This document shows positions 1-32,724 of a DNA stretch of 32,793 nt, one piece after another. Origin of the DNA: Candidatus Gastranaerophilales bacterium (GTDB lineage: Bacteria; Cyanobacteriota; Vampirovibrionia; Gastranaerophilales; Gastranaerophilaceae); NCBI GenBank assembly GCA_944325075.1, contig CALUYU010000027.1:1-32793 (forward strand), read 5' to 3'. Under the pieces are notes generated by a model. It was given only the letters and a program-made list of their open reading frames with translations. It was not told the DNA's origin and did no database searches. Positions within the stretch are counted from its first letter, which is position 1; each line of letters starts with the position of its first letter. A program made the position numbers and the translations under genes.

Positions 1-15
1 AAAGAAGTATTAGAT

Positions 16-281
16 AAAGTAGGTTGGGCTTTCAGCCCAACAATGAAATTATGTTGGGGTAGAAACCCCAACCTACATAAAAACAGCGATGACCTCATGG
101 GGAAAAAGTCGATAAAAGATTCCCCATGTCATCCTGAACTCGCAGCTCCTCTAGTTGCCGACGAAAAGGAGGCTTACAAGGGAGGGTGCTCGCAGAGTAT
201 TTCAGGATCTAGCCACCGACAAAAATGTTCGGCCATTTGCACACAAAAAACAAATGTTGGGCTGAAAGCCCAACCTACATT
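16..281. repeat. Composite dispersed repeat A upstream of prepilin-like gene 1
   Basis: This stretch is built of hairpin repeats. At 16-42 is a GTAGGTTGGG unit folding as GTTGGGCT-TTC-AGCCCAAC. At 55-77 is an opposed unit (GTTGGGG-TAGAAA-CCCCAAC ending in CTAC). At 129-142 and 200-214 are the two halves of a GTCATCCTGAACTCG/TTTCAGGATCTAG unit. At 255-281 is GTTGGGCT-GAA-AGCCCAAC followed by CTACATT. The outer ends (AAAGTAGGTTGGG and CCCAACCTACATT) are inverted repeats differing at one base. A frame stays open across all of this from the ATG at 43, but that translation is repeat-derived, lacks a ribosome-binding site and resembles no protein I know. Related units recur at 21161-21315 and 32696-32724. 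No transposase is present, so any mobility would depend on enzymes elsewhere. Confidence 0.75.
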
Positions 282-309
282 GATACCCGTTTCATTCCGC
301 AGGCGGAGC

Positions 310-1077
310 ATTGTAATACAGTGCCACAGACACAACTCGCCTCGCAAGGTCGCGTTCACCCTTGCTGAGGTTTTAATAACCCTAGGCATAATCGGAGTTG
401 TGGCCGCTATGACTTTGCCTACTTTAATTGCTAATTATGAGAAAAAGGTTGTTGCAACAAGGGCCAAACAGACATATTCAATGCTTTCTCAGGCAATAAA
501 ACTTTCTGAGGCACAAAATGGTGAGGCTAAATATTGGGATGTTGGAACAGTTTATAGTTTTGATAATACAGAAGCATTTTTGAAAAAATACCTATTACCA
601 TACCTGAAAGAAGCAAAATTTTGCGGTAATGGCAAAGATAATGAAGAAGCTATAAAAAAATGCGGAATTTCTTCATTTATTTTTGGGCAAACTTATATGC
701 TTTCAAATGGAGTTGCTGTTTCTCTATTTCCGTTATCTGTTGATCCCGCCAGACCTGACTTGAGCCAGGATGCAAATTCTATTTTAATAAATATGATTAT
801 AGATGTAAACGGAGCTAAGCAGCCAAATAAAATGGGATATGATCAATTCCAGTTTTATCTTTATAAAAAGGACAGTAAATTATTACCAATTGCAGAAGTT
901 TTAGATCTTACCAGAGAAGATATTTTAAATGGTAAGGAAGTTGAAATTCACGGTGCTAATTTTTATATGGCGTGCAAAAAGTCAAAATCTGATGATAATG
1001 ATACTTATTACAGACACGGTTGTACATACCTTCTGATGATGGATAACTGGCAGATTAAAGATGACTATCCATGGTAG
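310..1077 (+). CDS. Prepilin-like protein with type IV pilin N-terminal methylation/cleavage motif (gene 1)
   Basis: This is a secreted or membrane protein with a class III (prepilin peptidase) signal. A short basic leader (SPRKVA) precedes FTLAEV, where cleavage would fall between Ala and Phe and Glu5 of the mature protein is present. A hydrophobic helix ILITLGIIGVV-like then leads into PTLI and a soluble domain with several Cys. The family is type II/IV pseudopilin-like; what this protein builds is unknown. The start is uncertain. The open frame reaches back to an ATG at 43, but that extension is repeat DNA. The site homologous to the ATG of gene 2 (21350) reads ATA at 316-318 here. I give the in-frame ATT at 310, just after a GGCGGAG Shine-Dalgarno-like stretch at 302-308; the TTG at 280 is another option. 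From 310 the product is 255 aa. A terminator follows at 1109-1142. Confidence 0.75.
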   Translation: MVIQCHRHNSPRKVAFTLAEVLITLGIIGVVAAMTLPTLIANYEKKVVATRAKQTYSMLSQAIKLSEAQNGEAKYWDVGTVYSFDNTEAFLKKYLLPYLKEAKFCGNGKDNEEAIKKCGISSFIFGQTYMLSNGVAVSLFPLSVDPARPDLSQDANSILINMIIDVNGAKQPNKMGYDQFQFYLYKKDSKLLPIAEVLDLTREDILNGKEVEIHGANFYMACKKSKSDDNDTYYRHGCTYLLMMDNWQIKDDYPW

Positions 1078-21107: not shown

Positions 21108-21160
21108 ATAAAAAAGAAAACCTTGCAAATCTACTTCATTGCCTAAGGCGGTGATTAGTT

Positions 21161-21315
21161 AATGTAGGTTGGGGTTTCTACCCCAACAAAAATAATGAAT
21201 TTCAAAAATCAAACAGCTGTCATCCTGAACTCGTTTCAGGATCTAGCCGCCGTCAAGAATGTTCGGCCATCTGCACACAAAAATCTAATGTTGGGCTGAA
21301 AGCCCAACCTACATT
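21161..21315. repeat. MITE-like composite repeat B with 13-bp inverted ends
   Basis: The ends AATGTAGGTTGGG (21161-21173) and CCCAACCTACATT (21303-21315) are perfect inverted repeats. Inside are a GTTGGGG-TTTCTA-CCCCAAC hairpin, a GTCATCCTGAACTCG-TTTCAGGATCTAG hairpin and a GTTGGGCT-GAA-AGCCCAAC hairpin. No coding sequence and no clear target-site duplication are seen. The 50-nt gap before it (21108-21160) has CCTTGCAAATCTACTT, close to CCTTGCAAACCTACTT at 32744-32759. The element flows directly into the 5' end of prepilin-like gene 2. Confidence 0.75.
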
Positions 21316-21349
21316 GATACCCGTTTCATCTCGCCGGCGGAGCATTGTA

Positions 21350-22162
21350 ATGCAGGGCCTCAGGCCCCATTCGCCTCGCAAGGTCGCGTTTACTCTTGCT
21401 GAGGTCTTTTTACCATACTATTTATTGCCTCGTCGAATTGCGTTCACCTTAGCGGAAGTTTTAATAACCCTTGGCATAATCGGAGTTGTTGCTGCAATGA
21501 CGCTGCCGACACTTATTCAAAATTATAAAGAACGCTCAAGAGTTGTCGCACTTCAAAAGGCTTTTTCAATATTAAGTCAGGCGTATCAGCGAATAGTTTT
21601 AGAGGATGGTACACCTGATGTCTGGCTTTCAGAGGATGGTACCACTACCAGTAAAAAGAATGCCCAGATTGTTGCTGAAAAATTTAAACCATACTTAAAA
21701 GTAATAAAAGATTGCGGTTTTGAAACCGGGTGCTTTAAAGACGGTTATGTAAAAACTCTTAATGGATTGGATTATAATAATTACAACCAAAACACAAATG
21801 AATACAAACTAATACTTGCTGACGGAACAGCTTTAATATTTTATGGTGTTGGTGTAGAACATTTTACAAATGGACTATTTGCTAACATAAAAATCGATGT
21901 GGATGGATTAAATGGCGAGAATACATTTGGAAAAGATGTTTTTCTCTTTGAAATAGGTAAAAAGGGGTTATATCCATGTGGAGATGAAAGACTTAATAAT
22001 GATTATGATAGAACCTTTGAAGGTAATTGTATAAATAAATCGGTGTCAAGAGATTCTGCAGGAGGAATATCCTGCACTGCATGGGTAATATACAACGGAA
22101 ATATGGATTACCTTCATTGTCCGGAAAAACTCGGCTGGGATAAAGCTAAGCGCTGTAAGTAA
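21350..22162 (+). CDS. Prepilin-like protein with a doubled cleavage signal (gene 2)
   Basis: This 270-aa secreted or membrane protein has a type IV prepilin signal. The start is an ATG at 21350 with GGCGGAG 7 nt upstream. The signal occurs twice: KVAFTLAEV at residues 11-19 and RIAFTLAEV at 29-37, with 18 residues between equivalent Ala codons. Only the second is followed by the hydrophobic helix (LITLGIIGVVAAM), so cleavage should occur there, after Ala30, leaving an unusually long leader. The soluble domain contains several Cys (DCGFETGCF, CINKS, CTAW). A 12-nt direct repeat (21601-21612 and 21631-21642) encodes a local EDGT duplication. A TTG at 21425 could be an older start but has no ribosome-binding site. 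Confidence 0.8.
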   Translation: MQGLRPHSPRKVAFTLAEVFLPYYLLPRRIAFTLAEVLITLGIIGVVAAMTLPTLIQNYKERSRVVALQKAFSILSQAYQRIVLEDGTPDVWLSEDGTTTSKKNAQIVAEKFKPYLKVIKDCGFETGCFKDGYVKTLNGLDYNNYNQNTNEYKLILADGTALIFYGVGVEHFTNGLFANIKIDVDGLNGENTFGKDVFLFEIGKKGLYPCGDERLNNDYDRTFEGNCINKSVSRDSAGGISCTAWVIYNGNMDYLHCPEKLGWDKAKRCK

Positions 22163-32632: not shown

Positions 32633-32695
32633 GTGCCAGAGGCACTTCATAATAACGCTGCGCTTTCTGAGACGCGTAGAAATAATATTAAAACC

Positions 32696-32724
32696 AATGT
32701 AGGTTGGGGTTTCTACCCCAACAT
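32696..32724. repeat. GTAGGTTGGG hairpin repeat, copy C
   Basis: AATGTAGGTTGGGGTTTCTA followed by CCCCAAC is identical to the left end of repeat B (21161-21187). The following ATTGAAATTAT resembles AATGAAATTAT at 42-52 in repeat A. Confidence 0.75.

Follow-up and report, generated by a model that had tools for sequence, protein, structure and literature searches.

The window analysed here, a stretch of 32,793 nt that is contig C27 of a draft Candidatus Gastranaerophilales genome (2.26 Mb, 107 contigs), contains two prepilin genes whose 5' parts are almost the same DNA, which raises the question of what such a shared block does. The initial annotation had read it as a dispersed cassette that combines a noncoding hairpin repeat, a ribosome-binding-like site and a start region with the codons of a prepilin signal, and that could bring new proteins into prepilin export. 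The repeat itself was confirmed, as bases 200-371 and 21234-21405 align without gaps over 172 nt with 18 differences (89.5% identity, E 2e-61), and the similarity extends slightly further, ending at 374 and 21408, respectively. The hairpin, the GGCGGAG motif and the codons for SPRKVAFTLAEV are present in the shared block, but the start codon is not shared: the first copy has ATA and the second has ATG (21350-21352). Moreover, the supposedly noncoding hairpin stretch lies in an open prepilin frame in both genes (Table 1).

Table 1. Coordinates of the features of the two prepilin genes in the window
Feature	Position	Strand	Basis or remark
Leader ORF of prepilin gene 1, made of repeat modules	1..351	+	frame open for 117 codons to base 1
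Start of gene 1 leader	beyond the contig edge	+	
Two palindromic repeats, translation KVGWAFSPTMKLCWGRNPNL	16-42 and 51-78 (16..78)	+	repeat finding; dispersed in genome
5' cassette copy, family F1	200..371	+	genome matches, 5' clustering
GGCGGAG with degenerate start, ATA replacing ATG at 316-318	302..318	+	sequence
Prepilin signal and helix AFTLAEVLITLGIIGVVAAMTLPTLIANYE	352..441	+	core invariant in 33 paralogues
Prepilin gene 1 from the signal on	352..1077	+	DUF6613 match in mature part; model pLDDT 86
In-frame leader region of prepilin gene 2, 77 codons, without poly-G	21155..21385	+	
Palindromic repeat in gene 2 leader region	21161..21183	+	repeat finding
Second F1 cassette copy	21234..21405	+	alignment, repeat finding
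GGCGGAG with ATG, sole SD-preceded ATG of gene 2	21336..21352	+	sequence, start list
54-nt tandem unit AFTLAEVFLPYYLLPRRI, duplicate signal without helix	21386..21439	+	
Prepilin gene 2, functional signal to stop codon	21440..22162	+	

The translation start of gene 1 is most likely located upstream, since the internal start is ATA, and a similar leader elsewhere in the genome (C20:8320) opens with an SD-preceded ATG (MNKLFKKAGNEEN...). Gene 2, which lies in the gap behind uvrC and has no poly-G tract, probably starts at 21350; in this gene, we infer, the earlier reading of the start may hold, and the cassette ATG may also serve as the start in genes of this kind. The gene 2 signal carries a 54-nt tandem duplication (AFTLAEVFLPYYLLPRRI-AFTLAEV, 21386-21462). 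The GTTGGGGTTTCTACCCCAAC hairpin occurs again at 32695-32724, close to the right contig end. The window thus terminates in this repeat family on either side, which likely marks an assembly break.

Distribution of the block and the proteins that follow it

The cassette is not confined to two loci, as it has 82 matches in its own genome (G000); among the best 30 of these, 22 lead into AFTLAEV prepilin genes and most of the others lie upstream of poly-G elements. Long copies were found in only one of 97 relatives, the same-genus Candidatus Gastranaerophilales MAG BRZ_DP bin38 (G011), which is also the one other genome of the GTDB collection that has the core of the cassette. Counts of a degenerate AFTLAE pattern are 188 in G000 and 98 in G011, and range from 0 to 48 in ten further genomes from this genus. 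We read the surroundings of 86 genes in G000 and 66 in G011, with the sampling centred on the signals, and clustering of the 75 nt preceding the first signal of 132 genes yielded five dispersed 5' families and 45 genes in small or single clusters. The window cassette is family F1 (24 genes, 22 in G000), and the others are F0 (28 genes, 24 in G011), F2 (14, all in G000), F3 (11, 10 in G000) and F4 (10, all in G011). Extra signals, one to three per gene, occur in many genes as a 54-nt tandem repeat (AFTLAEVFSPYYLSPRRI), the copy number of which varies between orthologues (4 versus 2 in C16/C33).

The proteins encoded downstream have a class III signal and an N-terminal helix, as expected for type IV prepilins, and their mature domains form one divergent family with 33% mean column identity and an invariant AFTLAEVLIT core among 33 paralogues. 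A DUF6613 match was found in 21 of the 33 mature domains, and type IV pilin-type HMMs matched with E values of 4e-6 to 0.02, none of the matches reaching the curated cut-offs. The structure model of gene 1 begins with an N-terminal helix of 55 residues, after which come further helices and strands, and Foldseek returned no significant PDB fold match for the mature-domain model.

These results bear directly on the idea that a mobile repeat cassette with a translation start and a prepilin signal recruits new proteins to prepilin export, which would agree with its many copies, their position next to signals, the SD and ATG in many F1 copies and the helix DNA that travels along. However, every recipient already encodes a helix and a mature domain of the same prepilin family, so that no new protein is attached. 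Nor does translation initiation characterize such blocks in general: an SD-preceded ATG close to the signal is missing from most members of F0, F2, F3 and F4, which rules out the F1 start as the general one, and the starts of these families lie far upstream, beside a poly-G tract or as a separate SD-ATG. The F1 ATG sits within a palindrome (GCATTGTAATGC) and is also found in copies located 5' of the real start, of which 8 of 13 are broken. There is also no matching transposase, only an unrelated IS200. We therefore consider recruitment by a mobile cassette very unlikely, and the block appears to be mostly a part of a long translated leader rather than a translation start. Two further vehicles were rejected. 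For REP mobility driven by a RAYT, the sole Y1_Tnp of G000 is a single IS200-like TnpA gene (C73:327-683; L129, L150) that is unrelated to the cassette and has unrelated flanks, and none was found in G011; for phage carriage, the core pattern was on no viral contig.

Poly-G tracts and putatively translated leaders

The explanation we favour, with a probability of about 0.77, is that the block belongs to a poly-G phase-variable prepilin repertoire, in which in-frame palindromic repeats have filled a cleaved leader and recombination at the conserved signal has shuffled the 5' ends. A typical gene has a strong RBS and an ATG preceded by AAGGA or GGAGG (typical starts are MEKSSIARHTGGGG... or MLKLNHRADFHDRGGG...), about 8-12 codons and then a tract of about 9-14 G. 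The SD-ATG stands just 5' of the G tract in most of 69 genes from the two genomes, and in 19/19, 13/13 and 9/10 poly-G genes sampled in three more genomes. Exactly one of the three tract phases reads into the prepilin in 49 of the 69 genes with poly-G and a scored start, as well as in 19/19, 12/13 and 8/9 poly-G genes of the three additional genomes. As assembled, 12 genes are ON, and many others meet a TAA right after the tract. Among the other 20 of the 69 genes, 19 have a separate downstream in-frame SD-ATG, in several cases followed by repeat modules (e.g., MNKLFKKAGNEENNVGWAFSPTMKLCWGRNPNLHKN...). In about 19 genes (C34, C15 and C20 of G000; C34 and C31 of G011), the poly-G seems to lie in a short upstream ORF, often MQNPIIA..., that ends 5' of the prepilin's own SD-ATG, and translational coupling is possible there. 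Within the DNA around signals, 60 poly-G runs could be assessed, and 58 of them are followed by AFTLAE on the same strand. At the C31:16451 locus, which is 98.7% identical in G011, the consensus counts of the two species are 11 G (off) and 10 G (ON). Because only one G count in three would read through the leader into AFTLAEVLITLGIIGVV..., slippage is predicted to switch the gene on or off, although most F1 copies hold an internal SD-ATG that would bypass such a switch. In a ranking of 78 family genomes, G000 comes first both in runs of at least nine G (128) and in AFTLAE motifs (188); the G counts are the assembly consensus of draft MAGs, and poly-G is error-prone in short reads.

The region between the switch and the signal forms an open frame. 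In F0 to F4, the prepilin frame is open upstream of the signal for a median of 120-138 codons, and in the other two frames no gene reaches 100 codons. The stretch from the poly-G to AFTLAE is stop-free in the prepilin frame in 52 of 74 genes and in neither of frames 1 and 2 in any of the 74, against an expectation of 0.77 genes from dinucleotide shuffles, the 74 leaders being non-independent through repeat sharing. F1 copies within leaders are intact in 32 cases and broken in 5, which resemble alignment-edge or compensated gaps, while copies 5' of a poly-G start are intact in 5 cases and broken in the 8 mentioned above (Fisher p = 0.0017; some of the broken copies have one TAA subtype in common and are partly non-independent). 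The dispersed palindromes in the leaders are read in frame, with CHPELVSGSS and NVGWAFSPTMKLCWGR as examples of the predicted peptides.

Prepilin peptidase cleaves the leaders of prepilins off. In the present genes the cut would be expected between A and F, and everything upstream would be discarded; the leader would therefore tolerate in-frame insertions, and repeats could accumulate there. In another genus the leader is about 20-30 codons long, and in this genome it may have expanded to 50-190 codons, consisting of palindromic repeats that are translated. The occurrence of pilD and pilus genes has been reported in termite Gastranaerophilus (PMC5877343). Counting against this reading, leaders of such length are unusual for prepilins.

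Exchange of 5' ends between prepilin genes

The 5' ends, comprising the leader and the DNA that encodes the helix, are decoupled from the mature domain in their movement. In a maximum-likelihood phylogeny of mature domains, from which the helix was excluded, the 5' family label changes 73 times against a shuffled mean of 76.3, a value as low being reached in 29 of 200 shuffles, and each of the 14 F2 and 10 F4 genes is a separate event; the families are spread almost at random over the tree. We also compared 12 reciprocal-best pairs of orthologues from G000 and G011 with mature domains at least 93% and up to 99% identical, which often have unrelated leaders. In five of the 12 pairs the signal-helix DNA has been replaced: within the first 60-120 nt, 30-nt bins are about 70-90% identical and most differences are synonymous, and identity is about 100% beyond. 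Four of the five have an unrelated leader as well. The breakpoints are sharp and fall roughly +90 to +120 nt, where the signal helix ends. Several of the replaced genes have helix DNA that most resembles that of same-species paralogues of the same 5' family.

A finer picture was obtained at C1:90659, where the leader is near identical to that of its G011 counterpart (C1:32110), the differences are restricted to about -9 to +56, and the flanks are near identical for about 180 nt upstream and 2.3 kb downstream. This tract has a conversion-like signature; conversion and crossover are separable for one gene only, and contig ends limit the upstream flanks of most swapped genes. The upstream neighbours of C36:17433 are a GlyS-like gene in G000 and DnaA- and RuvA-like genes in G011, and these different neighbourhoods point to crossover or gene movement as well. 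Taken from the alignments, 5' ends are evidently exchanged between prepilin genes. Homologous recombination, by gene conversion and crossover, would swap them among paralogues because leaders and helix DNA are nearly alike there, the repeated leaders and the conserved signal both feeding such recombination, and F1 would be one of several 5' families exchanged in this way.

Whole-unit gene duplication with drift, by which common 5' ends would simply be inherited, accounts for paralogues that have both parts in common (the C31 pair and the C65/C12 pair) and for interspecies differences in whole units at uvrC and murA. Nevertheless, simple duplication is rejected by the random label on the mature-domain tree together with the orthologue breakpoints, where near-identical mature domains are preceded by unrelated leaders and by helix DNA only 73-86% identical. 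As the sole process it is refuted, and we regard it as extremely improbable, but units must surely also be duplicated or moved as wholes. Elsewhere in the genus, uvrC and murA have no prepilin next to them except murA in G011, so that these loci gave no empty-site comparison of the cassette alone.

It might also be proposed that palindromic repeats of MITE or REP type inserted independently upstream of the signals, with no recombination between prepilin genes. The hairpins are indeed dispersed and are present in leaders of another genus, the palindrome beside AFTLAE shows paired changes in 21 cells versus 10.0 in shuffles (0/500), and an independent insert, GATHVAQSAKPRRA, is found in the genome G004. 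However, the replacement reaches through helix-coding DNA, and one tract around the second signal lies mostly inside helix codons, which insertion alone does not give; this makes insertion without recombination quite unlikely as the full explanation.

Relation to known systems and to other genomes of the family

Researchers have found that a G tract in the sortase pili of Bifidobacterium breve decides translation into a second ORF without its own start (PMC9187656), and translational phase variation through a homopolymeric G tract has also been cited for Helicobacter canadensis (PMC2823697). The present genes differ from those of B. breve in that there are tens of separate genes per genome, in that they encode type IV prepilins rather than sortase pilins, in the repeat-built leader of 50-190 codons between the switch and the signal, and in that switching is only predicted. 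Rickettsia palindromic elements are likewise dispersed palindromes read in frame inside genes (PMC10969869), whereas those described here are unrelated in sequence, cluster within the discarded leaders of a single gene family, and are divided into several species-specific families. Unlike in REP/RAYT systems, a cognate RAYT flanked by palindromes was not found in G000 or G011.

In Neisseria, gene conversion among the pilin paralogues pilE and pilS uses a conserved N-terminal coding segment. The antigenic variation there (PMC4023411 and others) resembles our case in the conversion among pilin paralogues, but in the present genes it is the 5' end that changes places while the mature domain is kept; neither a single expression locus nor promoterless silent cassettes were seen, and the genes are full length with their own starts or switches. 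The parts are known separately, and no description of their combination was found; a literature search, covering part of the literature, returned no report of phase variation in Gastranaerophilales. If the prepilins are expressed and act at the surface, the system looks like a large, previously undescribed kit for cell-surface variation in uncultured gut relatives of Cyanobacteria whose surface biology is little known, and its 188 prepilin signals and 128 long G tracts would rank among the richest phase-variable surface repertoires known to us. A cut-off leader that can absorb any in-frame insert would be a simple reason for the piling up of repeats. Gene callers will mis-annotate the starts or miss OFF genes, and the repertoire is therefore likely undercounted. 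More tentatively, the leader could be a functional diversification platform that combines, under selection, a G-tract switch with palindromic recombination modules and a conserved signal; it would have evolved family-wide in Gastranaerophilales and would reassort the set of active variants among more than 80 pilins and the strength of their translation, an extension that we find doubtful.

In a genome of another genus (G033), poly-G occurs in 19 of 20 sampled genes, all 19 with one ON phase. Its leaders are often 20-31 codons long (median 31), and three genes with the same GGGCTGAAAGCCC hairpin have leaders of about 57, 95 and 115 codons; leaders with and without the hairpin are both present, though in non-orthologous genes. 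Long G runs and signals are not always coupled across the family. Three genomes of genus g9 (G020, G123 and G057) have 87-115 runs of at least nine G and only 4-5 AFTLAE motifs (115 and 4 in G020), and their poly-G genes may represent another phase-variable family or prepilins with a different motif. Conversely, G038 has a large prepilin set with 127 AFTLAE motifs and 7 such runs, apparently without a poly-G switch. The same plan, with different leader repeats, is seen in G006 (RFFGFHPQNDKKKA) and G004 (GATHVAQSAKPRRA). At six loci of G004 (L281, L282, L284, L292, L293 and L296), the GATHVAQSAKPRRA insert, with the palindrome GCTACGCACGTAGC inside it, directly follows FTLAE; it duplicates the signal and sits where G000 has its 54-nt unit.
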